NCBI RefSeq assembly: GCF_013167955.1
Contig: NZ_BLWF01000003.1
Location: 186,001-250,000, forward strand
DNA: 64,000 bases
Source of the DNA: Thermanaeromonas sp. C210
GTDB taxonomy: Bacteria; Bacillota; DSM-521; Neomoorellales; Neomoorellaceae
Direction: 5' to 3'
How positions within the stretch are numbered: position 1 is the first letter of the stretch; every line of letters starts with the position of its first letter. Position numbers and translations under genes: made by a program. Positions 34,891 through 55,303 of the stretch are shown here, piece after piece. Below the pieces are notes generated by a model, which saw only the letters and a program-made list of their open reading frames with translations, did no database searches and was not told the origin of the DNA.

Positions 34891-34919
34891 GTAAAGCCCC
34901 GGAAATTCCGGGGCTTTAC
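34891..34919 (+). terminator. Terminator after the dodecin gene
   Basis: GTAAAGCCCCGGAA (34891-34904) and TTCCGGGGCTTTAC (34906-34919) are perfect inverted complements. The symmetrical A/T-containing stem could act in either direction. It separates the dodecin gene from the CRISPR locus. Confidence 0.8.
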
Positions 34920-34967
34920 TCTTGCACCGGGCCACCCGTACAATTTGAAAAATTTTGCCTCCCAAGG

Positions 34968-34995
34968 AGGAATTAGGTAGATCCGTGTCGAATTT
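34968..34995 (+). promoter_or_regulatory. Sigma-H-like promoter with embedded 0A box before the CRISPR locus
   Basis: AGGAATTA (34968-34975), 14 bp, then GAATTT (34990-34995) repeats the layout seen before spo0A and spoIIA. TGTCGAAT at the 3' end also matches the 0A-box core. It lies about 70 bp before the CARF-HTH gene. This is a motif match only. Confidence 0.4.
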
Positions 34996-35065
34996 ATTCT
35001 CTCCGAGGAATTTAGTAATTCATTACCGTAGTTATGTAGTAGAGGGATTTCTTGTATAGTGCAAT

Positions 35066-35983
35066 TTGACGGTGCACGATGAAAGAAAAATGAAAATACA
35101 AGCATTACCCGTAAAACAGAAACGAAGCGGCGAGAGTCTCATTGCCACCCTGGGTTTGGAGCCCCAGGTGGTGACCATCACCCTGGATTACCTGTTGTCT
35201 AAGGGCAGGCGGGTTGACGAAGTTGTAGTAGTTTATACCGAGAATCCCGGTGTACGCCGGGCCCTAGATATTATAGCCCGCGAGTTTGCTGCTGACGTTT
35301 ACCCGGGCATCGGACTCCTTACCGTTCCTGTAACCTCGCCCGGAGGCCGGATGGAGGATTTCTACGGCCCGGACGACTTGCGCTCTCTTTTGCGGACCCT
35401 TTACGAGGTCGTACGCCGTGCCAGACAGGAGGAGCGGGTTATCCACCTGTGCCTTTCCGGCGGCCGTAAGGTGATGGGTATTATGGCCATGGTGGTGGCC
35501 CAACTACTCTTCGGCCCCGAAGATTGCGCCTGGCACCTGGTCACTGAGGGTTGGCATCCGGGCGCAGAACCCAGGTTGCACCTGTCATCCGGCGAGAGGG
35601 TTTGGCTTGTCCCGGTGCCCGTGGTGCGTTGGGCTGAGACAGGTACCTTGATGCGCGCGGTAGCAGAATTGGACGACCCCGAGGAGGTGGTAGCGTGGTA
35701 CGAAAGGATAAATCGGAGCGCCCGGCGCAGGCGACAGCGGGAGTTTATCCGTCACTGGCTCACGGCGGCGGAGCGGGAAGTGGTCCGGTTGGCCTGTCGA
35801 GGCCTTGATAACGCCAGTATCGCCAAAGCCCTGGGCAAAAGGGAACAGACCGTAGCCAACCAGCTCTGTAGCGTTTATGAAAAGCTCAGGGAATGGCTTG
35901 ACTACCCGGAGGGCAACGTGGACCGCAACGTGCTGATCGCCGAATTCGCGCCCTATTTCGCTCTGACGGAATTGGAAGGGTGA
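35066..35983 (+). CDS. CARF-domain protein with C-terminal LuxR-type HTH
   Basis: A 305-aa protein. The N-terminal half (about 15-180) is CARF-like, with ATLGLEPQVVTITLDYL and the nucleotide-loop motif CLSGGRKVMGIMAMV, closest in feel to the Csx14/NE0113 group. The C-terminal part (about 230-290) is a GerE/LuxR-like helix-turn-helix (LTAAEREVVRLACRG...NASIAKALGKREQTVANQL). It probably senses cyclic oligoadenylate made by Cas10 and regulates transcription; ring-nuclease activity is possible. The start is TTG 35066 or ATG 35090. First gene of the type III block. Confidence 0.75.
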   Translation: MTVHDERKMKIQALPVKQKRSGESLIATLGLEPQVVTITLDYLLSKGRRVDEVVVVYTENPGVRRALDIIAREFAADVYPGIGLLTVPVTSPGGRMEDFYGPDDLRSLLRTLYEVVRRARQEERVIHLCLSGGRKVMGIMAMVVAQLLFGPEDCAWHLVTEGWHPGAEPRLHLSSGERVWLVPVPVVRWAETGTLMRAVAELDDPEEVVAWYERINRSARRRRQREFIRHWLTAAEREVVRLACRGLDNASIAKALGKREQTVANQLCSVYEKLREWLDYPEGNVDRNVLIAEFAPYFALTELEG

Positions 35984-36037: not shown

Positions 36038-36955
36038 ATGCAGGGAGGAAGAGATGCCGTGCGCGGAACAGTGATGATTTCTCTTGTCGGTGAACAGCCG
36101 GTGCCGAACCTGCTGGCAGTGCTGCACGCAAGGCCCGAGCATGTAGTTTTGGTTTGTACAGAGCGCACTAAAGGTGTTAGTGAACGATTGCGCTCGGTCC
36201 TCAAAAAGCGTAGCCAAGAAAGCGGTATTTCGGTTGAGGATGAGCCTGTATACGTTGCCCCCTACGATATGGCAGATGTCGAGAGCAAGCTCAAGAGGGT
36301 TATCAAGGAGAAAAACTGGCCTCCGGATAAAATTGTTTTCAACCTTACAGGTGGCACTAAGCCCATGGCCTTGGCGGCTTACCGCCTGGCGGAGCAGTTT
36401 TCTAGCCCTTTTCTTTACGTACAGAGCGAGGGGAAGAAAAGCGTAGTATACCATTACCGCTTTTTTGATGGCGCTCCGGTGCTCGAAAGGGTGGACGAGG
36501 TACCGCCGGTGCTTAACATTGACCTTTACTTGAGAGTACACCTTGGAGAATATACAGAAGGTGAATTCAAGAATGATTTTGAAAAAAGGGTGGCCGGGGT
36601 GTTACAGCAAAAGGTTGACTAAATAAAGACCTCCGTGAAGCCCACGAACGCACTTGAAATTGATCTCGTGCTGCGCTGCGGTAATCGTGTGGGCATCGCC
36701 GAAGTGAAAAGCGGGAACAAGGCTCTAAGTAAGGAAGGCATTGACCAGCTAAACACTGCCGCCGAGCCGCGTTTCCTGGGAACCTATACCAAAAAGTTTC
36801 TCATTTTGGACCGTGAATATGGGTCCAACAACCTCGAGCTGGCCAGGGCGCATGGGATCACGGTAATCGAACTTCCCTCGGCGCAAAAAGGAGAGTTGTC
36901 GGAAGAAGACATGGAAAAGCTGATACAGACGGTGACAAGAGAACTGGGAGGCTAA
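36038..36955 (+). pseudogene. Card1/Can2-like CARF nuclease interrupted by an in-frame stop
   Basis: Residues 1-194 contain a CARF domain (ISLVGEQPVPNLL, FNLTGGTKPMALAAYRL) and the first helix of a PD-(D/E)XK nuclease. TAA at 36620-36622 ends this frame. The same frame continues and encodes the catalytic core ALEIDLVLRCGNRVGIAEVKSG and the rest to 36955 (about 305 codons in total). No frameshift is needed: only the stop separates sensor from active site. A GTG at 36635 could start a separate nuclease half, but no good ribosome-binding site precedes it. Intact homologues are cOA-activated DNases/RNases. The gene may be inactivated, read through, or a sequencing error. Confidence 0.75.
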
Positions 36956-36960: not shown

Positions 36961-37362
36961 TTGGTTCTTCTCAACTTTTCCCATCCCTTTACCGCGGAGC
37001 AGTTGCAGCAACTGGAGGACCTTACCCAAAAAAGGATGGACCGGGTCATCGAAATCGACGCCCAGATCGATCCCCAGCAGCCCTTAGTTCCTCAGGTAGC
37101 GGCCATGGCCGACCGGGCCGGTCTCACACCGGAGGAGTGGCAGACGTTGCCCATTCTTATTAACCCGCCATCTCTGAACTTCAGCGCGGTGGCGCTCCTG
37201 GCCGAGTTACACGGAAGGTGCGGCTATTTTCCGGCGGTGGTACGTCTGCGCCCGGTGGCCAACAGCGTACCGCCCCGCTTCGAGGTGGCCGAGATCCTTA
37301 ACCTGCAGGCGGTGCGGGAAAACGCTCGGGCAAAGCGCCAGCGTATGCCCACTAGCAAATAA
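36961..37362 (+). CDS. csx15: CRISPR-associated Csx15-like protein
   Basis: A 133-aa soluble protein starting VLLNFSHPFTAEQLQQLEDL, the style of Csx15 proteins found next to type III loci. Function is unknown; some small Csx proteins near CARF effectors act as ring nucleases. TTG start with GGGAGG 9 bp upstream, 5 bp after the CARF nuclease frame. Family call is from memory of the N-terminal pattern. Confidence 0.55.
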   Translation: MVLLNFSHPFTAEQLQQLEDLTQKRMDRVIEIDAQIDPQQPLVPQVAAMADRAGLTPEEWQTLPILINPPSLNFSAVALLAELHGRCGYFPAVVRLRPVANSVPPRFEVAEILNLQAVRENARAKRQRMPTSK

Positions 37363-37411
37363 ATGAGCAAATATTTTTAACGTGGAAATATGGGGAGGTG
37401 ATAAAAACTTG

Positions 37412-39679
37412 ATGTTCATCGACTGGCTGAAGGAAGTCTGTGACCCTCTGGGAGAACCGGCGAAAACGGAAAGACCGCCCTTAAACGCCTTTTGCTGGGT
37501 TCATCCGGTGACCGGTAGCCGCTATTACCTCGAGAGGGAGAAGGCCGCTGAAATTACGCGGTCCGGGTTGGCCTGGGTGGAGAGTTTGGTGAGAGGGAAG
37601 GGCCCGGCTTTCGCCGCCGAACAACTGTCTTTTTTTCTCTCTCAACGGGATGTTTTCTGTCGTAAACAATATCTGGAAGATGAAGGCTTTCACTTCGATA
37701 AAAAAGAGGATACTGTTCAAGATGTAACTGGTTTGAAGATTCCATTAGCGGCTCTGTGGCCCGAGTTGCCCTATCCGGGGCCCGGCGGTTGCCGGGCGTC
37801 TGAAACAGGGCCTCCGGTTGACTGGCTGAGCAGGGGAAACAAACCTTGTATACGGTTGGCTGATTTCCTTATCCTGCGTACAGGCCTATTTTATGCCCTC
37901 GTAGGTGACCGGTTACTGCCGGAAGAATGGCCCAAGCTCCGCCTCACTTCTCTTCTCGACGGCAGCAACGTTTACGGGACGCAAGAAGGCCCACCGTTTT
38001 TGGTGCCGATACCCGAGGAACTGCTAAAGGCCTACGAGGCGTCCTCCCTGCTAGCAGGCTGCCCCCAGGAGTTATCTTCAGGGAAAGCAGGCGCCCTTTT
38101 GGGGGAATTACCGCCCCTGGAAATAGTTGAAGGCGGTGCCTTTAAGGTTAAGGACTACTACTTGGAAACGAATCGCATCGGCGAGATACGCGGTGCCAGC
38201 GTGCTCCTGGACGACATAAACCGTAAGCGTTACTACCGGATGTTTAGTATCCTCCCCGGCTTGACTGCAGAATCCCTGGTCTATGCCGGCGGCGGCCACG
38301 TCATGGCAGTGGTGCCGGCCGGTAGAGGGGAGACGGTTGCAGGGGAAATCGAGCGGTTGCACCGAGAGGTATGCCTTACCGCCCGCGCAGTCGGCGTATC
38401 CTGTAGAGCGCATGTAGCTGACCTCGCCTGCTTCCGCCAGTTGCGTCAGCGTCTGAGCGATGAGATTACCGTCCGCCGGAACGCGCTGGTCCCCGCGTGG
38501 GACACAACCGAGGGAGATTTAAATCTGTATAGCGAGGAATTTCCGACCATTGCGCCTCTGACCTTACCGAAGGCCGGGGCCGGGGAATGGTGCGCATCGT
38601 GCGGTCTTCGTCCCGCCTTAAGGGTTTGGCCGTATCAGGACGAGGAACGGCCTCTCTGCGCTTCGTGCCTGCGTAAGCAAATCGCCGGGCAAAAAGCCGG
38701 AAAGACGGTCTTCGCCGAAGATTACCACCGTTTCTGGCGGGCGCGCGGCGAGGAAGCAAGCCTTCCTTCAGCTCAGGAAATTGATGATATTGCTGACTTC
38801 AATAATGAGATCGCGGTGATCTACGCGGATGGCAATAGCTTCGGAAGCCTGTTTAGCCAGTGCGATTCCCTGGGCCAGCTTCGCTGTCTCAGCCAGTTCA
38901 CCGAAAATGCCGCCTATACGGCGACTTTTACGGTACTAAAAGAATATCAGGAGCTTCTGAATAACCGGGCGGTAGAAATAATAGCCCTGGGGGGAGACGA
39001 TATCTTGACCCTTGTCCCGGCGCAGGCTGCGTTGCCCGTGGCTACCGCCCTTGGCAAGAGTTTCGACAGGCTGTTTAAAAACTTGTCGGAAGATAAACCC
39101 GCACCCACCCTCTCCCTCGGTGTGGTTATTGCCGGTGCCAAAACGCCGGTGCGCTATCTTTTCGAGCTGGCGAAGGCGCTCTTAAAAGAAGCAAAAAAGC
39201 GGGTTTATGAAGACGCATATAAGGGGAAAAGGGAATTGAGGGAAGGCACCTTAGACGTAGCCGTCCTCACCTCTCATGGTGGCTATGAGGATAACATCGC
39301 CACTTACCGTTCGAAAACTTTTCGCCAAGGCAATGTGAATCTCACCTTGCGGCCCTATACTTTTACTGAAGCCCTGAGTTTCATGGAGGCGGTACGCCGG
39401 CTCCGGGCGGCGCGACAGGCACCCGGTAGGAGCTGGTTTTACGGGTTGCGACTGGTAGTGGAACATTATGGTCAGCAGGTGGCGGAACTCTACTTTAACT
39501 ACCAGTTCTCTCGCCTTAGCGAGGAGCAGCGCGAAACACTGCGAGATTGCTGGTATCCTTTAACGGGCCTGGACAGTGATCCCGCCATGTTTTTTGAGCG
39601 CGAAGGCCGTTATTATTGCCCCTGGCTGGATGTAGTGGAACTCTGGAATTACGTTGGGGCGGGAGGTGAAAGCCGTTGA
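37412..39679 (+). CDS. cas10: Cas10, type III large subunit / oligoadenylate cyclase
   Basis: Large effector subunit (755 aa). The cyclase palm is intact: YADGNSFG near residue 471 and GGDD in ALGGDDIL near 527. A first, degenerate palm has GGGH near residue 290. A zinc finger CASCG...CASC lies near 394. I see no N-terminal HD nuclease motif, so it should make cyclic oligoadenylates but not cut ssDNA. GGGGAGG lies upstream; ATG 37412 or TTG 37409 are likely starts, with the frame open from GTG 37382. It overlaps the next RAMP gene by 4 bp. Confidence 0.9.
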   Translation: MFIDWLKEVCDPLGEPAKTERPPLNAFCWVHPVTGSRYYLEREKAAEITRSGLAWVESLVRGKGPAFAAEQLSFFLSQRDVFCRKQYLEDEGFHFDKKEDTVQDVTGLKIPLAALWPELPYPGPGGCRASETGPPVDWLSRGNKPCIRLADFLILRTGLFYALVGDRLLPEEWPKLRLTSLLDGSNVYGTQEGPPFLVPIPEELLKAYEASSLLAGCPQELSSGKAGALLGELPPLEIVEGGAFKVKDYYLETNRIGEIRGASVLLDDINRKRYYRMFSILPGLTAESLVYAGGGHVMAVVPAGRGETVAGEIERLHREVCLTARAVGVSCRAHVADLACFRQLRQRLSDEITVRRNALVPAWDTTEGDLNLYSEEFPTIAPLTLPKAGAGEWCASCGLRPALRVWPYQDEERPLCASCLRKQIAGQKAGKTVFAEDYHRFWRARGEEASLPSAQEIDDIADFNNEIAVIYADGNSFGSLFSQCDSLGQLRCLSQFTENAAYTATFTVLKEYQELLNNRAVEIIALGGDDILTLVPAQAALPVATALGKSFDRLFKNLSEDKPAPTLSLGVVIAGAKTPVRYLFELAKALLKEAKKRVYEDAYKGKRELREGTLDVAVLTSHGGYEDNIATYRSKTFRQGNVNLTLRPYTFTEALSFMEAVRRLRAARQAPGRSWFYGLRLVVEHYGQQVAELYFNYQFSRLSEEQRETLRDCWYPLTGLDSDPAMFFEREGRYYCPWLDVVELWNYVGAGGESR

Positions 39680-40272
39680 AGAAAACGGCCCTTTGTATTT
39701 GCTACCGTCTGAGACTCTTGACTCCAGTGCACGTGGGGAATGGTACCGGAGGAGCGGGGTTTCTGGACAGCTACCTCTACCGGGAAGGCGGGGTTCCCGT
39801 TATCCCCGGCTCCACCATTAAGGGAAGGCTGCGGGCGGCGGCGAGGGCTTTGGCGGGGGCTGGGATATACGGGGCAGAAGGAGTCTGCCGGGAAATTCTG
39901 GAGTGTACCTGTCCTGTCTGCTTGATCTTCGGTCGTCCGGGAAATAGAAGGGGAAGCCTTTATTTCGACGATGCCTGGCCCGAGCCAGAGGATGGCGGAC
40001 CCTGGATCAGCTTGCGCTCCGGGATTGGAATGGACCGCTACCGCAGGGTGGCCCGTGAGGGCGCCCTCTATACGCTGGAGACGGCTGGCGCGAAGGGAAC
40101 GGTATATCACGGCCGGATCAGCGGGGTGGTGCCGGAGAAGGATATGGAGCGAGTGGTGGCGGTGATAAGGGACGCCTTTGCCTATAATTACGCCCTCGGT
40201 TGGGGAAAGAGCCGGGGTCTCGGGTGGTTCCAGGCGGAGGTAGTGGAGGCAGAGAAAAGATGCGGTATTTAG
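39676..40272 (+). CDS. Csm3-like RAMP (Cas7 family), type III
   Basis: A 198-aa RAMP protein. The N-terminal RRM strand reads YRLRLLTPVHVGNG, the conserved glycine-rich segment VPVIPGSTIKGRLRAAAR follows, and CPVCLIFGRPGNRRG is the Csm3-type zinc/thumb region. The C-terminal loop is ALGWGKSRGLGWF. An Asp in GFLDSYLYRE could serve as the target-RNA cleavage residue. TTG start overlapping the cas10 stop. Confidence 0.8.
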   Translation: MKKTALCICYRLRLLTPVHVGNGTGGAGFLDSYLYREGGVPVIPGSTIKGRLRAAARALAGAGIYGAEGVCREILECTCPVCLIFGRPGNRRGSLYFDDAWPEPEDGGPWISLRSGIGMDRYRRVAREGALYTLETAGAKGTVYHGRISGVVPEKDMERVVAVIRDAFAYNYALGWGKSRGLGWFQAEVVEAEKRCGI

Positions 40273-41441
40273 TAACCCTGACCCTGGACAGCGCGACACT
40301 GGTTGGCGACAGGCGCGAACCCTCGGCTTACTTTCTCCCCTCCCGTGATTTTATTCCAGGTGGAGTGCTACGGGCCGCTCTGGCCCGGGCTATAAGGGAA
40401 GACTGTCCCTATGAGACGGGCAGCGTGCTGTCGAACTGGGTAGAGTTTACAGACGGCCCCCTATGCGCTGGCTGTTCGTGGCGCGGTCTGTGTTCCTGTT
40501 TCGGAGATCTCCGTTTCAGCCACCTGTACAAAGAGGGGGCAAAGGTAGCGCCTCTAACATCCTACCGGTGTAAATTCGACGAACGGCACCCTGTCTTCGA
40601 TACCCTGTTCAAGACCGGAATGCCTCGTTGCCCTGAATGTGGGAGCCCTGCTGAACGCGCAGCAGGTTATCTTGATAGCCAGAATGGTCTGGTGGGGGTA
40701 AACCGTCGCCTGCTCACGCGCCTGGAAGTAGATCCTTTCCGTCAGGTGGCCCAGGAGAAACAGCTTTATGCTTTGCGCGTTCTAAGTGCAGGGCAGACTT
40801 TTCGCGGCTCTCTTGCCGTGCCTGGTCCGGCGGTTGGTGTACCCTCGGAGTTTACCCTTCGTCTGGGAGCGAAAACCAGCGTCGGGTTGGGCCGGGTTCA
40901 AGTCCGCATTGAGGAGGCGGTTGTCTCCAATACGGGCGCTCTGCAGGAGCGCATTAGGCGGTTTCAGGAGAAGGCCCGCGGGCTGCCGGGTCTTCCAGAG
41001 GATAAGGAGGCCGGGGAATCCTTTTACCTATCCCTTACTCTGCTGGCCGATACCCTGCCAGCACGAAAACTGAGGGCGGCCGGGGAACGGGTTCCTACGG
41101 AAACTTTGCAGCGGGAGCTGCTACAATCCCTGCTGCCTGACGGAACTCCCCTGGCAGGGCGTATAGGCGCGGTGATCAGGGTTGTCGCGGATTTCGAGGT
41201 TTACGGCGGTTACTGTACGGCAGAACGCCTCTACGGACGCCGCAATGCTTCGCTATATGTATCGGCGGGAAGCGTTTTTCTGTGTCGCATAAAGGGATTT
41301 CTTGAGGGTGAATTGCTTCAGTCCCTCAAGCTCCTGGAGGAGCAGGGTCTGGGGCAGAGAACGGAAGACGGCTACGGGGCGGTGAGCATCTGCGACGAAT
41401 TCCACTTGAGTACAGGAGGGGTTACCGGTGAAGGCAAATGA
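40260..41441 (+). CDS. csx10: Csx10-like RAMP (Cas5 group), type III-D marker
   Basis: A 393-aa protein with two RAMP halves. The first has FLPSRDFIPGGVLRAALARAI and cysteine pairs (CAGCSWRGLCSC, CPECGSP). The second has EVYGGYCTAERLYGRRNASLYVSAGSVF and EEQGLGQRTEDGYGAVSI. This layout fits Csx10, which caps the crRNA 5' handle in type III-D. ATG 40260 has GGAGG upstream and overlaps the previous gene by 13 bp. Confidence 0.7.
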   Translation: MRYLVTLTLDSATLVGDRREPSAYFLPSRDFIPGGVLRAALARAIREDCPYETGSVLSNWVEFTDGPLCAGCSWRGLCSCFGDLRFSHLYKEGAKVAPLTSYRCKFDERHPVFDTLFKTGMPRCPECGSPAERAAGYLDSQNGLVGVNRRLLTRLEVDPFRQVAQEKQLYALRVLSAGQTFRGSLAVPGPAVGVPSEFTLRLGAKTSVGLGRVQVRIEEAVVSNTGALQERIRRFQEKARGLPGLPEDKEAGESFYLSLTLLADTLPARKLRAAGERVPTETLQRELLQSLLPDGTPLAGRIGAVIRVVADFEVYGGYCTAERLYGRRNASLYVSAGSVFLCRIKGFLEGELLQSLKLLEEQGLGQRTEDGYGAVSICDEFHLSTGGVTGEGK

Positions 41442-41877
41442 ACTCTTGGTGGAGGATATAAGTATTGACCGGGAAAGGAGAAAGGCGTTAAACGAGCTCA
41501 AAGAACAACTGGCCCAAAGGGCTGTGAACTTTCTGGAGGGCAGCAAGTCCAAGCCTAGTGAAATGGGAGACAAACAGATCCGCAACCTGGTGGCGCTGGC
41601 CCAAATGGCGGCCACTCCCCTGGAGATCGAGGCCTTTATCGATTACCAGATGGGGCGTGACAATAAAGAAGTGTCCTGGAGCAAAAGGATTGAGGGTGAG
41701 CCTTTTGGTGAAAGGCTGAAGCGGGAGCTAAAAGAAATAGTAGATATGGCACGACAGAAGCGTCCGGAAGATAAGAGATTCTCTCTTCTTTGCCTGGCTC
41801 AGTTTTTCGGCTACCTGGCCTGGAGGGTTAAGTACCTGGAATATTTAAGAGCTCAATCCGGGGAAGGACGGAGGTGA
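41428..41877 (+). CDS. Type III small subunit (Cas11/Csm2-like)
   Basis: A 149-aa, mostly helical, charged protein with RRKALNELKEQLAQ near the N-terminus and FSLLCLAQFFGYLAWRVKYLEYLRA at the C-terminus. Size, composition and place between Csx10 and Csm3 genes match type III small subunits that line the target RNA. GTG start overlapping csx10 by 14 bp. Identification rests on context. Confidence 0.6.
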   Translation: MKANELLVEDISIDRERRKALNELKEQLAQRAVNFLEGSKSKPSEMGDKQIRNLVALAQMAATPLEIEAFIDYQMGRDNKEVSWSKRIEGEPFGERLKRELKEIVDMARQKRPEDKRFSLLCLAQFFGYLAWRVKYLEYLRAQSGEGRR

Positions 41878-42704
41878 GCGCGTTGGCGGTAGGAGCCGGT
41901 CCTCTTTACGATATTTTTTACAACCGTCGCCGGATCACCGGACGCCTGGTGGTACTGACCCCCCTGCGCATCGGCAGCGGGGGAGAGGCCCCCGATCCCA
42001 CGGCCATCGACAATCCCGTTATACGGGACTCTTTTGGGCGCCCCTTTATCCCGGGTTCCTCCTTCAAAGGAGTATGGCGTGCTTTTGCCGAGCAGGTTTT
42101 AGACCAGCTGGATAACGGCGACAGGGGTTGCTGCGATCCCCTGGCTGACCCCTGCCTGTCTGGAGAACCAATAAAGGAGCTCAAGCGGAAATACAGAGAT
42201 AATCGCCGGGCTTTGGCTGAAGCCATCTACAAGGGGCTGTGCCCGGCCTGCCGCATTTTCGGCAGTCCCCATTTTGCCGGCCGGTTAAGGGTCCGGGATC
42301 TCCTTTTGGTCGAGGCCAGCTGGCCGGGCTTCTGCGAAGTCCGGCCTGGGGTGGCCATTAACCGGGATACACGCACGGCTTACTCATCCCGTAAGTACGA
42401 GGTGGAGGCCGTGCCGGCAGGAACCGCCTTCCACTTCGAAGCTGTTGTGGAAAATGCAGCTGAAAAGGAATGGCGGGATATACTCCTCACGCTGCTTCCG
42501 TTTACGCGAGGGGAGCTTCCCCTCGGAGGCGGTACGGGGCGCGGCCTGGGCAGGGTGTGCCTGAAGGAGGTCACGGTGGCCACGGTCACCCGGGCCAATT
42601 TAGGCGACTTTTTGTCTCGAGGCTGGGAGGGGATACCTGCAAAGGACCTGGAAGAAGCTTGCCGGGAATCAGGTATCCCTGCGGGGGGTGAAAGCGGTGT
42701 TTAA
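41874..42704 (+). CDS. csm3: Csm3-like RAMP with likely RNase aspartate
   Basis: A 276-aa backbone subunit. Motifs: GRLVVLTPLRIGSG, then DPTAIDNPVIRD with the conserved aspartate used by Csm3 for target RNA cleavage, FIPGSSFKGVWRAFAEQ, CPACRIFGSPHFAG and the C-terminal PLGGGTGRGLGRV. Overlaps both neighbours (4 bp and 17 bp), so translation is coupled. Confidence 0.85.
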   Translation: MSALAVGAGPLYDIFYNRRRITGRLVVLTPLRIGSGGEAPDPTAIDNPVIRDSFGRPFIPGSSFKGVWRAFAEQVLDQLDNGDRGCCDPLADPCLSGEPIKELKRKYRDNRRALAEAIYKGLCPACRIFGSPHFAGRLRVRDLLLVEASWPGFCEVRPGVAINRDTRTAYSSRKYEVEAVPAGTAFHFEAVVENAAEKEWRDILLTLLPFTRGELPLGGGTGRGLGRVCLKEVTVATVTRANLGDFLSRGWEGIPAKDLEEACRESGIPAGGESGV

Positions 42705-43587
42705 GAATTTGCGCAACGAAGCGCGGATTTCCTTCTGGCTCCGCACAAAGGGGCCCCTTCTAATAAAGGGTCCGGACGAGCCGGGTTTGGACCCGCTTTT
42801 ACCGGATATGCGCTTTATCCGTGCCTGGCGCAACGGGGAAGAGGTTCCCTATATCCCCGGGTCGAGCCTGAAAGGAGTCCTGCGCAGCCGGGCGGAGCAG
42901 ATTGTGCGAGCCCTGGCGCCGGAGGGTATGGATATCCCCGATCTGTTCGAGGGGCAACAGGAGCTGGAGAAGCAAATGAAGAACAGGTCGGGCTCGGAGA
43001 TATATTACGCTTCAGACCCCCTTACCCAGCTTTTCGGCCAGACCTATCTGGCGGGCAGGCTGTTCTGTTCTGACGCCTTTCCGGTGGAGGGTGAACCTAT
43101 TAAGCTTAATGTGCGCACCCACGTTGCCATCAACCGCATTACCGGAGCTACCCAGGGAAAGGCTTTGTTTACCCCGGAAGCGGTAGAGGAAGGCACTTTC
43201 GGAGCAGAAATAACCCTCACCAATTTCGCCCTATGGCAGCTGAAACTCCTCGGACTGTTGCTCCAGGACCTGGACGAGGGATACATATTGCTCGGCGGCA
43301 GCACCACCAGGGGTTACGGTAGAGTGGGGGTGGAAAACGTCCGGGCGGTAGTGCGGGACTATCGCCGCACTCCTCCCGGAAAGACCATACGCGGTTACGA
43401 GGAGGATGATGCCGTAGAGGTAACCCATTGCCGGTTTGGTAGGAAGGAGTACTGCTGGGAGTCTTACGCCGAAGGTCTTGCGTGGCTTGTTAACCTCGAT
43501 GTCGATTTGGCCCAGGAACTGGAAAAGTTGCAGCGCAAACAGAATGACGCGCGGCGGAAGCGGGAGAAGGTGAGTAGTGGTGGCTAG
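42688..43587 (+). CDS. Csm3-like RAMP, second backbone subunit
   Basis: A 299-aa RAMP with GLDPLLPDMRFIRAW (conserved Asp region), YIPGSSLKGVLRSRAEQIV, TQLFGQTYLAGRLF, HVAINRITGATQGKALF and ILLGGSTTRGYGRV. A lysine-rich C-terminal tail follows the core. GTG start inside the previous gene's 3' end. Confidence 0.8.
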   Translation: MKAVFKNLRNEARISFWLRTKGPLLIKGPDEPGLDPLLPDMRFIRAWRNGEEVPYIPGSSLKGVLRSRAEQIVRALAPEGMDIPDLFEGQQELEKQMKNRSGSEIYYASDPLTQLFGQTYLAGRLFCSDAFPVEGEPIKLNVRTHVAINRITGATQGKALFTPEAVEEGTFGAEITLTNFALWQLKLLGLLLQDLDEGYILLGGSTTRGYGRVGVENVRAVVRDYRRTPPGKTIRGYEEDDAVEVTHCRFGRKEYCWESYAEGLAWLVNLDVDLAQELEKLQRKQNDARRKREKVSSGG

Positions 43588-44671
43588 GGGAACTTTGTTG
43601 CGCGATAAACCCTATACCTTCGTCCCCCTGTTGCCGGTCCGGCCGGAAGACCGGCGGGAGATCGTGCCCCACAATCGCCTGGATGGCCGCCGCTGGACGG
43701 GGAAGCTGGTGCTGGAGCTGGAGGTTGTAACTCCTTTGCACATCGGTAGCGGTTCCCTCCGCCTCATAGGCGGGCAACCGGTTCAAACTTTTTTGCGGCG
43801 GGGCGAAACCCCCGTGATTCCTGGGTCCTCTTTAAAAGGAGCGGTGCGAAGTCTTGCCGAGGCGGTTGCGCGTAGTTGCCTGGCACAGTCGCCGGCCAGA
43901 AGCGTTGCCAGGCTGGATAATGCCTTCCCTCCGGGAGTGCGAACTCAGTGTACCGAAGAGGCTGCCTGCATTACCTGCCGGCTTTTTGGTTTTACAGGAA
44001 ACGACAAGGGTTACCGTGGGAGGGTAATGTTTGGTGAATTTAGGCCCGCAGGAGAAGTTGAGCTGACCGTAGCAAGACTGCCGGCGCTGGAACAACCCTT
44101 TAAAGATTATCCCCGAGAGGAGAACAAGGGGGGCGGCAACGAGCGCCTGTACTACTGCCGGTTTTACTTGGAGGTTCCCTGCAATGGTCCCCTCCACTGT
44201 CCAGACTGTACCAAGGAGGAGTGGCTCAATTGGAAAAAGCGTCTTAAAGGACGGCTGCCGCCGCCATCCTTTCGTGGACGCAAGTTCTACCTCCAGGGAG
44301 TGCCGCGCACGGGAAACCAGCCGTGCGAAATGGTGATGCCCGGTAGTTGCTTTCAGGGCGAGATAACTTTTCAGAACCTGGACAGGGATGAATTAGCTTT
44401 GCTCTGTTTTGCTCTTGGGCTAGACGGAGCGATGCGTCTGAGCCTGGGCTACGGCAAACCGGCTTATTACGGCACGGTACGGCTAAAGCTGCGGGAGGTA
44501 AGCTGGTATGCAAGGCATTCTTTTTTCGTGAAACCAGACTATCCGGATCCCGTGGAACTGGCGCAAAACTACGGCAGTAACGATCCGGATATTCAGAAGA
44601 ATGTAGCCCTGGTACGCCAAATCCTGTCGGGCATACGCCGCGGGCCGGAGTGGGGCGCAAAAGGCTATTAG
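43577..44671 (+). CDS. Large Csm3/Cmr6-like RAMP (third backbone-type subunit)
   Basis: A 364-aa RAMP. LELEVVTPLHIGSGS, VIPGSSLKGAVRSLAEAVAR and CITCRLFGFTGNDKG form the usual first half. Extra cysteines in HCPDCTKEEW suggest a second zinc site. The C-terminal half has MVMPGSCFQGEITF and LSLGYGKPAYYGTV. Two GTG codons (43577 and 43580) can start it. In a III-D complex it may occupy the Csm5-like distal position. Confidence 0.75.
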   Translation: MVARGTLLRDKPYTFVPLLPVRPEDRREIVPHNRLDGRRWTGKLVLELEVVTPLHIGSGSLRLIGGQPVQTFLRRGETPVIPGSSLKGAVRSLAEAVARSCLAQSPARSVARLDNAFPPGVRTQCTEEAACITCRLFGFTGNDKGYRGRVMFGEFRPAGEVELTVARLPALEQPFKDYPREENKGGGNERLYYCRFYLEVPCNGPLHCPDCTKEEWLNWKKRLKGRLPPPSFRGRKFYLQGVPRTGNQPCEMVMPGSCFQGEITFQNLDRDELALLCFALGLDGAMRLSLGYGKPAYYGTVRLKLREVSWYARHSFFVKPDYPDPVELAQNYGSNDPDIQKNVALVRQILSGIRRGPEWGAKGY

Positions 44672-44700
44672 AAAAATTCGGTTGGGAAGGGAATGGCTGG

Positions 44701-45216
44701 ATGGGGTTGGACAAGGAACGGCTCTTGGGGCTTGCCTATCGCTTGCTGGAGGAACCCGGCTGGCCGGGGGCCGCGGACAGGGCGGGCCAAACAGCTATCA
44801 ACACCGTAGCCGGCATCTTCCGGGAGTTTTCTCGCCTTCCGGCAGGAGCGGACCGGTTAAAGCAAGCCCTGTCACTGATTGAAGCGTTGCCCGGGAGTCC
44901 TCTCGCCCGCTACAGTATGCGGAACCAGTATCAGAGGATCCTCGAGATCCTCCAGGTTCGTAATGGCAGGGTGAACCACCCGGCTATTAAAGAGCTCTCT
45001 TTCGAGGAACTGGCCTATGTTATCGGTTGGGTAAGCCGGCTGCACCGGGCGATGGCTGCCGGAGTTAAGGCTTCTGCCGCCAAAGTGTCGGGCAAAGACA
45101 AGAGGCAAAAAGGAGCTTCTACCAGGGAGCCCGAAAAGACCTCTAAGAGCGGGGTGGAGGTCATCGACCCCCGGTGGAAAGCCCTAAAAGACTGGCCTGG
45201 CTTCAAAAAAACCTAG
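44701..45216 (+). CDS. Unrecognised helical protein in the type III operon
   Basis: A 171-aa protein (188 aa if GTG 44650 is used). The first 120 residues are predicted mostly helical (INTVAGIFREFSRL, LKQALSLIEALPGSPLARY, FEELAYVIGWVSRLHRAM); the tail is lysine/serine-rich and disordered-looking. Its place after the RAMP genes and its composition suggest a second small subunit or a Csx19-like accessory, but I cannot assign a family. Confidence 0.5.
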   Translation: MGLDKERLLGLAYRLLEEPGWPGAADRAGQTAINTVAGIFREFSRLPAGADRLKQALSLIEALPGSPLARYSMRNQYQRILEILQVRNGRVNHPAIKELSFEELAYVIGWVSRLHRAMAAGVKASAAKVSGKDKRQKGASTREPEKTSKSGVEVIDPRWKALKDWPGFKKT

Positions 45217-45235
45217 CAGGGGGAGAAACGGGACC

Positions 45236-45982
45236 ATGCAGCTCACCATCTTTTTTACCGCCCCAGGCCCGGTGGCCGTTCCCGTTCAGTACGGCCATTT
45301 GCTTCAGGGAATTATCTACCAACACATGGAAAATCCGGTGCTCAGGACCTACCTGCACGAGCACGGCTTCGCCCTGGAAAAGCGCCGCTTTAAGCTTTTC
45401 ACCTTTTCTCGCTTGATGGGACGGACAGTGATCTACGACCGGGCGGCCGGCCGGCTGGTGCTCACGCCGCCGTTGCGACTGGTGATCTGTTCTCCCATCC
45501 CTTTCATCCTCCAGGAGCTGGGGACCGGTTTTCTCCGCCAGGGGCAGGTGCGGCTGGGAGAGGCCCGCCTGGAGGTAAAGGAAATAGCCACGGCAGCCCC
45601 AAGGGTAATGCAGGGGATTCTTCGGGTGCAAATGCTCTCCCCACTGGTTGTTTACAGCACCCTTTCCGGCGGCGACGGCCGTACCTACACATATTATTAT
45701 TCGCCCTTTGAGCCGCGCTTTACCGAGCTGGTGGCCAATAACCTGGCGAAAAAGCACCTTTTGGTTTACGGCCGTCCGGCCCGGGTGAATGGCTTTGCCA
45801 TCCGACCGGCGCGGGTGGATGACCGGGATCTAAAGGTCACTTACTATAAAGAAACCGTTGTCAAAGGGTGGATGGGTCAATATGAGCTTCGCGGCGACCC
45901 CGATCTTTTGCAGGTCGCCCTCGACGCCGGCCTGGGAGCCAAAAACTCCCAGGGTTACGGCTGCTGCACCCCGGCGGAATAG
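45236..45982 (+). CDS. cas6: CRISPR RNA endoribonuclease Cas6
   Basis: Repeat-cutting RNase (248 aa) that produces crRNAs. N-terminal VQYGHLLQGIIYQHM contains a His that is often catalytic, and the C-terminal glycine-rich loop is GAKNSQGYGC. It has the double-RRM length of clostridial Cas6. It is the only Cas6 in the window and lies between the type III and type I-B blocks, so it probably supplies both. Confidence 0.9.
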   Translation: MQLTIFFTAPGPVAVPVQYGHLLQGIIYQHMENPVLRTYLHEHGFALEKRRFKLFTFSRLMGRTVIYDRAAGRLVLTPPLRLVICSPIPFILQELGTGFLRQGQVRLGEARLEVKEIATAAPRVMQGILRVQMLSPLVVYSTLSGGDGRTYTYYYSPFEPRFTELVANNLAKKHLLVYGRPARVNGFAIRPARVDDRDLKVTYYKETVVKGWMGQYELRGDPDLLQVALDAGLGAKNSQGYGCCTPAE

Positions 45983-46021
45983 CTCCGCTAACCTGCTGCC
46001 TCAGAGGAAGGAGATGTTCCG

Positions 46022-47254
46022 ATGCTTGTAGCGCTCAGCACCATTGGCCCCACTGAGTACAAGGAGATCGAGTATTCCTGGGCACCCCCGGGGCAGGAGC
46101 CCCGGACCTATCGCACGGCTCTTTTCCCCCTGGCCGTGGATACCTTTTTCCGACCGGAAAAACTCCTGCTCATGGTTACGTCTGAGGCACGCACCCATGA
46201 GAACCGCTGCTATATTGAACGGGTACTTGGTCAACGGTTCCAACTGGTGCCTATTCCCTCGGGCAGGACCGAGGAGGAACTCTGGCAGATCTTCGATATT
46301 GTATCTGATGCCGTGCCTGAGGGAGCGGAGGTCATTCTCGATGTAACGCACGCATTTCGTTCGCTCCCGTTCGTAATTTTCGGGGTCATCAACTATCTCA
46401 GGCGGACCAAGGGAATCCGGCTGGAGCGCATTGTCTATGGGGCATACGACGCGAAAGAGACCGGACCGGACGGAGTGCAGCGTGCGCCTGTTTTTGATCT
46501 AACCATGCTGGTGGACCTGCACGAATGGCTGCAGGCGGTGGAGGCTTTCACCCTTCGGAGTGAAGGGCAAAAACTGGCCGATCTGCTTGATGAGGCGCAC
46601 CGTCGGCCCTGGCTTTCCGGTGAGCGGGGCGAAGGCGAACTGCCGCGCCAGCTCCAGAGGATGGCGGGATGTATTAAGGAGTTTTCTCAATCCGTGCGGC
46701 TGCTGCGACCTCTGGAGGCACTGGAGGCGGCGGCGAGAGCGCAGACCCTTGCCCGGCAGGTGGAGCAGGAGGCTGCGCGCTGGGCGAAGCCTTTCCGGCA
46801 CGTCCTTTTGCGCCTTACCGACGAGCTTTCACCTCTGGCAACGGGTGATGCGCGGGCACTTGACGAGGAGGGGCTCCGGCGTCAACTGTCGCTCATCAAG
46901 CACTGTGTTGAAAAGGATCTCATCGTCCAGGCCGTGCTTATGGGTCGCGAATGGTTGGTTAACTGGCTGGCCTGGCGGGCGGGAAATAAACCGTGGCTTA
47001 ACCGCGATACGCGCCAAGAACTGGAGCGGGTTTTGGGCCTAGCGGCACGCCGTCTACAGGAGGGGGATACCGAGGCCGTTCCATCCTGGTATGACGCCTT
47101 GCCCGAGGCAGGCGCGGTGGCGGACTTATGGCGCTGGCTGACCAATCTGCGCAATGACGTGGCCCATTGCGCGATGAACGACCACCCGGCACCATCCAGT
47201 AGCATACGTGAGAGGGCCGAGGAACTGGTGCAGCGTTTAATCAAGCTGCTTTAG
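46022..47254 (+). CDS. csx1: Csx1/Csx2-type CARF-HEPN ribonuclease
   Basis: A 410-aa ancillary RNase activated by cyclic oligoadenylate. The CARF half (about 1-180) includes the DxTHxFRS signature in ILDVTHAFRSLP and belongs to the TM1812/DxTHG group. The C-terminal HEPN domain has the catalytic RNxxxH motif in LRNDVAHC near residue 380. ATG with AAGGAG upstream. With Cas10's intact GGDD it should act as the collateral RNase of the type III system. Confidence 0.88.
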   Translation: MLVALSTIGPTEYKEIEYSWAPPGQEPRTYRTALFPLAVDTFFRPEKLLLMVTSEARTHENRCYIERVLGQRFQLVPIPSGRTEEELWQIFDIVSDAVPEGAEVILDVTHAFRSLPFVIFGVINYLRRTKGIRLERIVYGAYDAKETGPDGVQRAPVFDLTMLVDLHEWLQAVEAFTLRSEGQKLADLLDEAHRRPWLSGERGEGELPRQLQRMAGCIKEFSQSVRLLRPLEALEAAARAQTLARQVEQEAARWAKPFRHVLLRLTDELSPLATGDARALDEEGLRRQLSLIKHCVEKDLIVQAVLMGREWLVNWLAWRAGNKPWLNRDTRQELERVLGLAARRLQEGDTEAVPSWYDALPEAGAVADLWRWLTNLRNDVAHCAMNDHPAPSSSIRERAEELVQRLIKLL

Positions 47255-47453
47255 CGAAAGGCTCGTTCAATGCGTGCCCTGATCGCCCTTATAAGCGGGC
47301 AGCGGATGCAGGATGTTATTCTTTGATTTCTCCATAGTAATCGGCTACCACTCAGAATGTTAATACCATGTCTCGGCAGTAGCTCTGTTATCCGTTAAGG
47401 TATAAATTACGTTGCCCCATTAAATGGAGATGAGGTGTTGCAGGTAACGATGG
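47255..47453 (+). promoter_or_regulatory. Intergenic region before the type I-B genes
   Basis: This 199-bp gap is the longest in the cas block. It includes a short inverted repeat (GCCCTTATAAGCGGGC near 47284-47299), AT-rich stretches including TATAAATT at 47401-47408, and GAGATGAGG before cas8b. A separate promoter for the type I-B operon may lie here, but I cannot define it. Confidence 0.3.
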
Positions 47454-49493
47454 ATGAAGGAGGTGATTCCCCTGCTCGAAGCTGTGGCTTTGATCGGTCG
47501 AACTCTGGCCGGAGGTGGCGATCCGGTAGCCGATCTCATCAACCCCCCACCGCGCAAGCCGCCTAAAGTGGAGACCATTTACCTCGTTAAGCTGAATTTT
47601 CGGATGGGCGCTGGCGAGCCGCTGATGGTGGACATGCAGGAGATCGATGAGACCGCGCTTACCCGCTACCGCTGGGTAGGAAATGAAAAAGGCAACCGGC
47701 CCCAGTTTTACCTGACCACCGACCAGCTCAAGTATCTGGTGGGGCAGGCGCCGGTCAACCTTTTAGCGCGGCTTGAGGAAGCTGGGCTTGAAAACGGGAA
47801 CCTTTACCGGCGGCTGTCGGCCCTCGTAAAATCCTTCTTCCGCCAGTTGCCGGACGGGAGCCGCGTGCTTGACCCGCAGCGGCTGGGGTTGACAACAGGA
47901 GACGTTCTGGCTGCCACCTGGGAGGAAAATACCGGAAAGCCGCAGGAGCGGGCGAAGGCGGTGGTCGCAGCAGTAACCGAAGTCTTGAAAAAGTGGGTCC
48001 TGGAGCAGCTTGAGCTGAAAGCGGCGGAGGCGGCCCTGTGGACGGTGCTGGTCGATGATGTCCCTCTAGTCGCCGATCCGGACTACGCCCGCGTTTTGCT
48101 CCTCGGCAAGGAAGAGGCGGTGGATAAGGGTAAGCCGGGTGTTTGCTCGGTCTGCGGGGCGGAAGACCGGCCGGTAACGCCGGATTTTACCCAACTGAGT
48201 TTTCTGAAATACTACATCAACGACAAACTGGGGGCGGCCTCGGGTGTAGCGGAGGAAGGGTTCGGGCGCAACTTCCAGGCCTGCAGGGATTGCTTCCGGG
48301 GACTCTTGCTGGCCGAAAGATTCGTTCAGGACCGTTTAGGCCTCCGGGTGGGCCGGCTATCCTTCCTGGTCCTGCCGGCCTTCCTGTGGGAAGCAGATCT
48401 CTCCCGTACGGACCTGGAGTTCTGGGCGGAGAAGCTCAAGACCCGCGTGGAGGCGCTGAGTAACACCTCCGGCTGGGTGGAGAGCCTGGCCGGACTCAAG
48501 GGGCTGGATGACGAGCTTCACGACCTGTTAGAGGATATGCCGTACGAGAACGCGGCGCTTTTAAACTTTCTTTTCTACCACTACCAGGGGGGCCGGAGCG
48601 AGTTCCGGGTGCTTTCCCTGATCAAAGACGTGGCCCCGAGCCGGATCGCCCAGCTTCTACGCCGCAGCCATAAGCTTGCCGACCAGGCCGCGGCGCTTTT
48701 AGGCCCCGACCGGTGGTGGCTCGACCTTGCCGCCATCTACCGGCTCATCCCCTTAAGCGAAGGGCCGCGCGGGGCGGAGTACAAAAAGCTGCTCCACATT
48801 TACCACGGCCTTTTGACGGGCGCGCCCCTCGACCGTGCCTTTCTCATCCGGGAGTTTGTGGCCCTGGCCAGGGTATACCACACCGGCAACTACGAAGGCA
48901 CCAACGTGCCGCGGCCGAAAGCGGGCGCCGAGGAGTGGGAGTGGACGCGCCGGCTGCTGCAGGCGAACCTTTTCCTGAAGTTTTTGCAAGAAGAAAACCT
49001 GTTGCGAGGAGGGAGGTCCTTGAGCACCCCGGTGGAACTGGAAACGGAACTGCTGCCGGAAGAGATGCGAGATTATCTTAAGGCCATGACTTACGACGGC
49101 CCAGAGGCAGCGCTTTTTCTGCTGGGCTACCTTTTGAACCAGGTGGGGCAAAAACAGCGTGACCGCGGTTACGAAAGCAAGCCAGTGCTGGAGAAAGTGA
49201 ACTACGCCGGTATGCCCTGGGCGAAGGTGGTGCGGCTGGCGAACATCTTGGTGGACCAGCTCCGGCAGCACGACATACTGAAGTACTACGAAGGGCTCTT
49301 TGCAGCCATGAAGAAACTTTTTGACGCCCACCGGCCCGGTCCCCACCGGCGCGACTGGCCGCTATCGCCCGAAGAAAACGTCTTCTACATTCTTTCGGGC
49401 TACGCCTACGGCACGCGCATGGCTTTTAAAGCCTGGGCCGAAAAGCAGAACGCTAAAAAACAGGATGATCAAGAAGGGAGTGCTGAGCAGTGA
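47454..49493 (+). CDS. cas8b: Cas8b, type I-B Cascade large subunit (TM1802/Csh1 type)
   Basis: Large subunit (679 aa) responsible for PAM recognition and Cascade assembly. It fits the TM1802/Csh1 family in length and gene order. A zinc finger is formed by CSVCGAEDRP and CRDCFRG (about 228-275). The C-terminal part is helical and probably acts as the small-subunit region. ATG start at 47454; AAGGAGG sits inside codons 2-4, so GTG 47463 cannot be excluded. Confidence 0.85.
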   Translation: MKEVIPLLEAVALIGRTLAGGGDPVADLINPPPRKPPKVETIYLVKLNFRMGAGEPLMVDMQEIDETALTRYRWVGNEKGNRPQFYLTTDQLKYLVGQAPVNLLARLEEAGLENGNLYRRLSALVKSFFRQLPDGSRVLDPQRLGLTTGDVLAATWEENTGKPQERAKAVVAAVTEVLKKWVLEQLELKAAEAALWTVLVDDVPLVADPDYARVLLLGKEEAVDKGKPGVCSVCGAEDRPVTPDFTQLSFLKYYINDKLGAASGVAEEGFGRNFQACRDCFRGLLLAERFVQDRLGLRVGRLSFLVLPAFLWEADLSRTDLEFWAEKLKTRVEALSNTSGWVESLAGLKGLDDELHDLLEDMPYENAALLNFLFYHYQGGRSEFRVLSLIKDVAPSRIAQLLRRSHKLADQAAALLGPDRWWLDLAAIYRLIPLSEGPRGAEYKKLLHIYHGLLTGAPLDRAFLIREFVALARVYHTGNYEGTNVPRPKAGAEEWEWTRRLLQANLFLKFLQEENLLRGGRSLSTPVELETELLPEEMRDYLKAMTYDGPEAALFLLGYLLNQVGQKQRDRGYESKPVLEKVNYAGMPWAKVVRLANILVDQLRQHDILKYYEGLFAAMKKLFDAHRPGPHRRDWPLSPEENVFYILSGYAYGTRMAFKAWAEKQNAKKQDDQEGSAEQ

Positions 49494-50458
49494 GTGTTGT
49501 GGACAAAAACAGCGAAATCCTTTTCCTTTACGATGCCAAGATGTGCAACCCGAACGGCGACCCGGACGACGAGAACCGGCCGCGCTTCGACCCCGACCGG
49601 GAACGCTGCCTGGTGTCGGACGTGCGCCTGAAGCGTTACATCCGCGACTACCTGGAGGAGAAGGGCTATGCCATCTACGTCACCAAGGCGGAAGGGGTGG
49701 TGCAGGCGACCGACCGGCTGAAACAGGTGCTGGGAAAAGAAGAGGTGAGCGGTGCCGACCTGCCGGCCTTGCTGGAAAAATTGATCGACGTGCGCCTCTT
49801 CGGGGCGACGATGCCCATCAAGGGGGCCAAAAAAGGGGAGGGCGAAGCAGTCAATTTAACGGGTCCTGTGCAATTCGCCTGGGGTTATTCCCTTAATCGC
49901 GTCCAGATGGTCGATTCGGTCACCATTTCGTCCCAGTTCGCCGCTCGGGAGCAGGCCGGGCAGGGGACCTTCGGCAAGGACTACCGGGTTTACTATGCCC
50001 TCATCGGCTTCCACGGCGTAGTTAGCGCCCGGCGAGCCCGTGCGATGCTGGATCGTGCCGGTGGAAACGAAGCCGCCGCCACCGGGGAGGCGGACCTTAA
50101 GCTATTGGATGAGGCTATGGTCCACGCCATACCACTCGCGGCTACCCGTTCGAAAATCGGTCAGTACCCGCGACTTTACCTGCGCGTGGTCTTCACAGAC
50201 GGAGAAACCTTTATGGGCGACCCGCGGGAAGACCTTGTGGTGGACCCTGACCGGGACCTGCGCTCGGTTAAGGAGCTGACCCTTGATCTCACGGGCCTGG
50301 GCGAGCGGCTGGCGCGGTTCAAGGAGCGAATCGCGCAAGTTCTCGTCTTCCAGGACGCGGACCTCAGCACTAAAGCGGCGGGACGGAAGGTTCTGGCGGC
50401 TGCCTGGCTTGCGGAGCTACTAGGGGCGGATAAGGTGAAAACCCTGGAAAGGACCTGA
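49490..50458 (+). CDS. cas7: Cas7, type I-B Cascade backbone (Csh2)
   Basis: Backbone subunit (322 aa) that coats the crRNA. The N-terminus has FLYDAKMCNPNGDPDDENRP and LVSDVRLKRYIRDYL, the Csh2/Cst2 signature. GTG start overlapping the cas8b stop by 4 bp. Confidence 0.92.
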   Translation: MSVVDKNSEILFLYDAKMCNPNGDPDDENRPRFDPDRERCLVSDVRLKRYIRDYLEEKGYAIYVTKAEGVVQATDRLKQVLGKEEVSGADLPALLEKLIDVRLFGATMPIKGAKKGEGEAVNLTGPVQFAWGYSLNRVQMVDSVTISSQFAAREQAGQGTFGKDYRVYYALIGFHGVVSARRARAMLDRAGGNEAAATGEADLKLLDEAMVHAIPLAATRSKIGQYPRLYLRVVFTDGETFMGDPREDLVVDPDRDLRSVKELTLDLTGLGERLARFKERIAQVLVFQDADLSTKAAGRKVLAAAWLAELLGADKVKTLERT

Positions 50459-50463
50459 TAAAT

Positions 50464-51228: not shown

Positions 51229-51230
51229 AC

Positions 51231-53741: not shown

Positions 53742-53763
53742 TTGCGGTAGCGGTGAAGGCATT

Positions 53764-54267
53764 ATGAGTGCAGAAGTGCGCGCGCTCGGTAGCTATGTTC
53801 AGGCTTATCTTATCTGCCCGCGGCAGGTGTGGCTTATGTCGCGGCAGATTTGTCCCGACGAGGATAATGTGTACCTTGAGCTGGGCCGCTTAATTGGTGC
53901 CCAGGCCTACGGACGCGAGCGTAAAGAGGTGCGGCTCGAACACTTGAGCATCGACCTGGTGCGGCGAGGGGACCGTGATTTTGTTGTAGGCGAGGTGAAG
54001 AAATCGTCGCGCGCCCGGGAAGCTGCGCGCATGCAGCTTGCTTTTTATCTCTACGAACTGCGGGAGATGGGAATTGAAGCGGAGGGCGAATTACTCTTTC
54101 CCGAAGAGCGACGGCGGGAGCGCTTGATTCTTGATGATAGTCTGGCGCGGCAGGTGGAAGAATTGAAGGTTCGCGTTCTAGCGCTGATCTACCGTGACCA
54201 GCCCCCTCCGCCGGAGAAAATCCAGTTTTGCGGCAAGTGTGCGTACGCCGAATTTTGTTGGGCTTAG
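53764..54267 (+). CDS. cas4: Cas4 exonuclease for spacer processing
   Basis: RecB-family Fe-S exonuclease (167 aa) that trims prespacers and helps PAM selection. The four cluster cysteines are one in ICPRQVW and three in CGKCAYAEFC at the C-terminus. The nuclease core contains VVGEVKKSSR. ATG 53764 is set by the family start; an upstream in-frame ATG inside cas3 is unlikely. Confidence 0.92.
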   Translation: MSAEVRALGSYVQAYLICPRQVWLMSRQICPDEDNVYLELGRLIGAQAYGRERKEVRLEHLSIDLVRRGDRDFVVGEVKKSSRAREAARMQLAFYLYELREMGIEAEGELLFPEERRRERLILDDSLARQVEELKVRVLALIYRDQPPPPEKIQFCGKCAYAEFCWA

Positions 54268-54280
54268 AAAGGGGCAAGGG

Positions 54281-55288: not shown

Positions 55289-55303
55289 GCCGGTGGTGAC
55301 ATA

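Follow-up and report, generated by a model that had tools for sequence, protein, structure and literature searches.

The first gene of a mixed CRISPR locus in Thermanaeromonas sp. C210 encodes a CARF domain fused to a LuxR-type helix-turn-helix (HTH), and this protein is probably a transcription factor that senses cyclic oligoadenylate (cOA) and ties expression of the type I-B operon in the same locus to type III-D signalling; we put the probability of this reading at about 0.6. It builds on domains, conservation, operator positions, co-occurrence and promoter geometry, all read from DNA. The window is the whole 64,000-nucleotide stretch that was analysed, and coordinates are given from its first letter unless another locus is named. 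L and G numbers are our labels for loci and genomes.

An earlier note on this DNA had placed the gene at 34968–35983. A CARF-HTH gene is indeed present, but its span had to be corrected: 34968–35065 is non-coding, an open frame runs from a TTG at 35066 to 35983, and the ATG at 35090 is the likely start codon, which gives a gene of 35090–35983 on the plus strand and a protein of 297 residues (residue numbering begins one residue after the ATG). The protein consists of an NE0113/Csx14-type CARF domain (residues 23–205), linker helices, a LuxR/GerE HTH (223–266) and a C-terminal helix. Both halves proposed in the earlier note were recovered by profile searches, with PF09623 (Cas_NE0113) at E 2e-52 (about 178.5 bits, cut-off 23) and TIGR03642 (csx14) at 92.8 bits (cut-off 90.35) for the CARF half, and PF00196 (GerE) at 25.1 bits for the HTH, above its gathering score of 23.5. 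The motif CLSGGRKVMG is present as described, and its GGRKVM is invariant in all 23 proteins of our ortholog alignment, the other 22 of which are 47–77% identical to the window protein. The CARF-GerE fusion is kept in every one of the 23 (GerE at E 0.01, best 6.3e-9), with HTH columns Q252, T253, A255, N256 and Q257 invariant.

The gene heads the CRISPR locus, as had been stated, with a 69-aa open reading frame (34681) upstream and type III-D and type I-B genes downstream. All of the following lie on the plus strand: a card1/can2-like CARF-PD-(D/E)xK gene (36038–36955) with an in-frame stop near 36620; csx15 (36961–37362; NF040560, 177.9 bits), which here stands behind the card1-like gene; cas10 with a GGDD motif (37382–39679); the type III-D RAMPs, small subunits, cas6 and a csx1-like CARF-HEPN gene (39676–47254); the type I-B genes cas8b-cas7-cas5-cas3-cas4-cas1-cas2 (47454–55567, cas2 assigned by its translation); and a CRISPR array of 47 repeats (55767–58851). 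Besides the array leader, the block contains two gaps of about 200 bp, at 34891–35089 and 47255–47453. An uninterrupted relative of the card1/can2-like gene is found at the same place in Pelotomaculum propionicicum (L056). The III-D operon carries two Csm2-like small subunits, at 41428–41877 (47.3 bits) and 44650–45216 (only 19.3 bits). A GC-rich inverted repeat can be seen by eye after the 69-aa frame; the inverted-repeat scan does not list it.

The upstream regions of the CARF-HTH orthologs have a module in common, TRGTA-N6-TACYA-N7/8-TRKTAR, which is our candidate for the operator. Two strict matches to this pattern were found in the 2.68-Mb genome, none with the reversed control, and both lie in the window on the plus strand: predicted operator 1 before the CARF-HTH gene (35013–35042, TAGTAATTCATTACCGTAGTTATGTAGTAG), with the III-D genes downstream, and predicted operator 2 (47335–47363, TAGTAATCGGCTACCACTCAGAATGTTAA) in the gap that precedes cas8b, with the type I-B genes downstream. 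A profile built from 19 other orthologs, with the window left out, ranked 47334–47379 first in the 64-kb window (E 7e-4) and operator 1 second at only E 0.56, with one extra spacer base and level with a chance match at 51384–51408 (E 0.66). Upstream of 24 of the 36 scored orthologs the module reached a weight-matrix score of at least 14 (99% point of shuffled sequences 13.0), a partly circular count to which the profile, strict-pattern and cas8b tests are preferable. The 450 bp before the distant orthologs L065, L067–L070, L075 and L076 yielded no operator. The weight matrix and the profile likewise gave no match in the array leader (55568–55766), and the footprint that the earlier note had proposed there is accordingly not predicted.

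In other loci the module also stands before genes other than the regulator. These are a Cst-type I-B operon (L109), which opens with a gene that has no match to the cas8b of the window, further type I operons headed by a cas8-like gene (L107, L108, L110, L048 and L066), cas4-cas1-cas2 (L040 and L057), cas6 (L063), and csx15 in two loci in which it is set apart from the regulator gene (L058, at 4106, and L060, at 4913). In both of the latter a 515-aa open reading frame lies between csx15 and the regulator gene. Two further candidates were rejected, one at 19579 in L053, which is inside an open reading frame and was dismissed as chance, and one at 9076 in L055, which has neither the third half-site nor a fitting -10. 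An RNA hairpin in place of a DNA operator was also discarded, as pairing of TAGTA with TACCA at many sites sets an A opposite a C, and a scan of the gaps against Rfam returned no family, its matches being the 47 CRISPR repeats and one hit below the gathering score inside a gene.

The position of the module relative to promoter elements bears on the sign of regulation. Operator 2 adjoins a predicted sigma-A-like promoter (47373–47401, plus strand; TCGGCA, 17 bp, TAAGGT). Numbering starts at the first base of TRGTA: a -35-like hexamer is found at +38, and TANNNT occupies +61/62 at 19 of the 22 sites with a long leader (91 bp or more ahead of the start codon). None of 2000 shuffles exceeded 7 of 22, and after thinning of close relatives the fit is 14 of 16. 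Among the 12 short-leader sites, a class that includes the window's own site, two fit +61/62, each of them a start codon. This division by leader length is post hoc: before it, a -10 had been counted at 21 of 34 sites, of which two proved to be start codons. Three near copies (L044, L045 and L051) and L072, which is in the wrong register, had been left out before the count; a TTGTCA-N16-TATTCT promoter can be read by eye in L072. There, at 7382–7520 before cas6, a sigma-H-like motif is followed by an operator-like module (E 0.0079) and then by TTGTCA and TATTCT, the regulator of this locus being only 47% identical. At type I and long-leader sites the module immediately precedes a weak -35 and keeps a fixed distance from the -10 downstream, so the protein is most likely an activator there. 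Operator 1 begins 23 bp after the GAA of a sigma-H-like motif, and because it sits just downstream of that promoter the CARF-HTH protein may restrain its own operon in the window.

The same arrangement can be read as that of a repressor throughout, which without cOA would occupy the operators and keep both operons low until the ring lifted it off. The operator follows the sigma-H-like GAA by 23–31 bp in the window, L038 and L059 (short-leader sites) and by 47–59 bp in six long-leader loci, L041 being an exception at 337 bp (all distances counted by hand); lying downstream of the GAA, it would therefore be part of the transcript. Against this stands the fixed spacing upstream of the -10 in 19 of 22 type I and long-leader sites, the usual place of an activator, and we regard general repression as unlikely, although it is the rival that survives best.

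The sigma-H-like promoter itself (34968–34995, plus strand; AGGAATT, N15, GAAT; AGGAATTAGGTAGATCCGTGTCGAATTT) contains TGTCGAA at 34986–34992. Its layout had been likened to that before spo0A and spoIIA, and rightly so: AGGA-N17-CGAAA precedes these genes at 4690 and 9315, the spacing at 34968 is the same, with 18 bases from AGGA to GAA at all three sites, and both are indeed in the window, spo0A by Spo0A_C (1.6e-45) and a spoIIA-type operon by its STAS and sigma-factor matches. The promoter motif is real by sequence and recurs before 9 of 36 orthologs, a count made without the window in which four of the nine (L042, L047, L051 and L052) are close relatives. AGGA-N13/14-TGNCGAA has these 9 matches in the 15.8 kb upstream of the 36 orthologs versus 8 in 521 kb elsewhere, both strands included. 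The distance from AGGA to GAA in the nine is 17 bases in eight and 18 in one (hand count). What found no support is the use of TGTCGAA, the supposed 0A box, as separate evidence: it overlaps the -10 of a promoter class, AGGA-N13/14-TGTCGAA, with 30 matches in the genome (3 for the reversed control), 23 of them outside any same-strand open reading frame of at least 120 aa, and because its GAA(T) is the -10 of that same promoter it cannot be counted again as a Spo0A box. Copies of this motif precede motA-like, DUF881, rodZ-like and ABC-transporter genes (four downstream frames were scanned). A pattern scan for AGGA-N17/18-GAA in the gap before cas8b gave no match.

The sensor half is related to the Crn1 ring nucleases. 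In an AlphaFold2 model of the protein (mean pLDDT 83; 60–80 over residues 121–200) the CARF half is closest in fold to Sso2081/Crn1 (Z 16.2, 148 residues, 2.4 Å, 27% identity) and the HTH half to the LuxR proteins EL222 and VpsT (Z about 11), and sequence profiles agree, with E 1.2e-10 for Sso2081 and 6e-4 for NarL. Passages of PMC10018336 on Sso2081 report that D75 and R105 contribute most to cA4 binding with K106 assisting, and that S11A strongly lowers cleavage. The counterparts of the three binding residues, D89, R125 and K126 (positions counted by hand), are invariant in 23 of 23 aligned orthologs. The catalytic S11 corresponds to Glu23, which is invariant in the same alignment and a Glu in all 34 loci, among 39, in which this motif I residue was readable by script. 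Serine was found there in three NE0113/Csm6-type proteins of other architecture: L193 and L194, PF09623 matches that cover the CARF part of the query only, and a Rhodothermus protein named Csm6 by NCBI. A Rhodothermus relative with HTH_38 instead of GerE has Gln at this position. The exchange suggests a sensor that would bind cOA but hardly cut it, although Glu at motif I is no proof of lost cleavage, because Ser11 was reported as not critical in Sis0455 (also in PMC10018336).

This relationship leaves room for a protein that is simply a ring nuclease, regulates no gene and needs its HTH only to dimerise or to inhibit itself, as the wHTH of Sis0811 is reported to do. Fold and sequence are closest to Crn1 and motif II GRK is intact and invariant across all 23 aligned orthologs; a 38% identical Rhodothermus relative bears the NCBI name "CRISPR-associated ring nuclease"; and a 2025 survey assigns Csx14 to the Crn1 group (PMC12409355), with a ceiling of 250 residues for ring nucleases that the 297 residues of the fusion exceed. 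The fusion differs from Crn1 (Sso2081, Sis0455) in its Glu for Ser11 and in having an HTH, and about 30 of 178 Sso2081 residues are unaligned. The curated Crn1 model NF040581 gave 28.3 bits at a cut-off of 125. Invariant HTH columns and a predicted operator that tracks the gene also argue against a plain ring nuclease, which we consider quite improbable.

How closely the operator tracks the gene was assessed across 398 genomes of the phylum. The strict pattern has 12 matches in 10 of the 24 genomes with the gene (3 of which carry broken or cut copies), all within 14 kb of it, and 47 matches in 36 of the other 374 genomes; these tallies were made by hand. The reversed control had more than 100 matches over the 398 genomes and 6 in the 24 with the gene (hand count). 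Across the phylum the strict pattern shows no enrichment as such, and therefore the signal is its place in gene-bearing genomes and not its number. Of the 8 genomes with an intact regulator, 7 carry the module upstream of cas8b (scores 12.1–22.1), as opposed to 0 of the 21 without (at most 10.7), at a weight-matrix threshold of 12 chosen after the scores were known, and it stands 115–226 bp before the cas8b match in the seven. The test covers 29 of the 30 genomes that have a cas8b relative, L151 (G395) being omitted with a cas8b cut at the contig edge, and G009 (truncated gene, score 9.4) was counted as without. Two of the seven sites are weak (G044 and G144), and G124 has none despite its intact regulator. 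The profile model gave 5 of 8 at E 9e-5 or better versus 0 of 21. The hypergeometric chance of the 7 of 8 versus 0 of 21 outcome is about 5e-6, calculated by hand with shared ancestry ignored and the threshold set afterwards.

Co-occurrence and position are what ties the module to this protein, and some other regulator might bind it in its place. NarL recognises inverted TAC-type half-sites, as in the predicted module, and such half-sites suit many LuxR/NarL proteins. Both strict sites of the genome lie in the CRISPR locus, however, and the contrast before cas8b follows the presence of the intact gene, so that we give another regulator little credence, about as little as a plain ring nuclease. 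That the upstream likeness reflects recent transfer of whole loci, with the module under no selection, is very improbable: some loci are close (L044–L046; L042, L047, L051 and L052), but the proteins are only 47–77% identical, the sequence to either side of the module appears by eye to have diverged, and the module stands before non-matching genes.

A Cas10, the predicted source of the ligand, usually accompanies the regulator. Cas10 palm2 reaches at least 45 bits in 21 of the 26 genomes with the gene, is above the family cut-off in 22 and matches at E 0.001 in 25, the weaker matches (20–29 bits) possibly being GGDEF proteins. No convincing Cas10 was found in G003, G015 and G047 (intact gene, draft genomes); of the three with a broken copy, G270 has a convincing Cas10, whereas G009 and G167 lack one. 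In 23 of 39 loci csx15 sits 11–154 bp downstream of the CARF-HTH gene, and Csx15 is described in parts of PMC13148439 as a cA4-binding protein that acts as a sponge or slow ring nuclease.

Activation by cOA, the reading that we prefer, would proceed as follows. The neighbouring Cas10 would make a cyclic oligoadenylate ring, probably cA4, which the Crn1-related CARF domain would bind and, because the catalytic Ser is replaced by Glu, not cut efficiently. The LuxR-type HTH would bind the module before its own operon (with csx15, cas10 and the III-D genes) and also before the type I-B operon for interference and adaptation; where the site is of the type I or long-leader kind, activation would be the likeliest outcome. 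Its own operon is probably started by the sigma-H-like promoter and may be restrained by the same protein, and Csx15 probably buffers cA4. The proposal of the earlier note that a Cas10 messenger could change transcription directly is strengthened by the conserved predicted operator before cas8b, and DNA binding and the ligand are the parts of it that we infer, as are the lack of cleavage and the sign of regulation. A fuller version, which we hold tentatively and at somewhat less than even odds, casts the CARF-LuxR protein as a former ring nuclease that, having lost the catalytic serine and acquired a LuxR DNA-binding domain, became a master switch, in which type III target recognition leads to cA4 and cA4 turns on the type I-B genes for interference and adaptation in the same cell, with Csx15 as the buffer and the sigma-H-like promoter setting a basal level before sporulation.

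A conserved site before both the regulator and type I genes suggests that one bacterial CRISPR system tunes another by transcription. If the fuller version is true, the protein would join Csa3 as the second transcription factor under cOA control, put together independently of it, bacterial and with a defined operator and regulon. The name "ring nuclease" may mislead for the CARF-LuxR clade. Csx15 would gain a likely functional partner in the regulator. An explicit predicted operator at two places, with a geometry that predicts the sign, makes the idea testable with one protein, two DNA fragments and cA4.

The earlier note had set the protein apart from Csa3 and thought a LuxR-type fusion less described. 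The first part stands, the HTH being GerE and not of the Csa3 type; as to the second, the sequence family is already catalogued, both under the NCBI ring-nuclease label of a relative and as CARF3--CARF in PADLOC, whose model PDLC01851 matches near full-length (401 bits, residues 14–292). That library label, which covers the same sequence family as Csx14/NE0113, does not name the HTH. Csa3 (Csa3a and Csa3b of Sulfolobales) shares a CARF domain with a C-terminal HTH and no catalytic effector domain; parts of PMC8844856 describe Csa3a as an activator of acquisition genes and arrays and Csa3b as a regulator of I-A and III-B genes. The HTH of Csa3 is a MarR-like wHTH, whereas that of all 23 aligned orthologs is LuxR/GerE, and the CARF domain here is bacterial and of the Crn1/NE0113 kind, unlike that of Csa3 in Sulfolobales. 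The predicted operator differs as well, with none found in the array leader here. Csa3 models scored below their cut-offs (TIGR01884, 17.3 bits against 60.2; Csa3_N, 14.3 bits against 27), and Csa3 (6w11) matched the structural model across both domains weakly (Z 10.5, 4.9 Å). By the tests made, the CARF-LuxR protein is no Csa3, although its predicted way of working is like that of Csa3. With LuxR/NarL regulators such as EL222 and VpsT it shares the HTH fold and differs in its sensor, here a CARF domain. NE0113 was predicted in 2014 to regulate transcription, and the parts of that paper which deal with it give no operator or regulon (PMC4012209). The open-access literature searched gave no description of the operator, the type I-B regulon, the activator-type geometry or the Ser-to-Glu exchange.

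A match at E 0.001 was obtained in 110 of the 398 phylum genomes, most of them to the HTH only; a full-length CARF-HTH relative is present in 21, a broken or cut copy in three more (G270, G167 and G009), and two further full-length relatives occur in a family set of 18 genomes (G007 and G015). Among 396 phylum genomes searched with PF09623, 24 of the 26 with a match carry the CARF-GerE type, broken copies included. The 39 CARF-HTH loci come from named genomes of Desulfofundulus, Pelotomaculum, Moorella, Armatimonadetes and Anaerolineae MAGs, and others. A phage origin was rejected, as seven pattern-matching stretches on viral contigs encode no CARF-HTH relative, and plasmids gave two matches in 72,556 records, both from Rhodothermus at 37–38% identity. 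After the CRISPR array of the window, 59290–63193 holds a reverse-transcriptase-like gene and IS-type transposase genes, as judged by eye from their translations.
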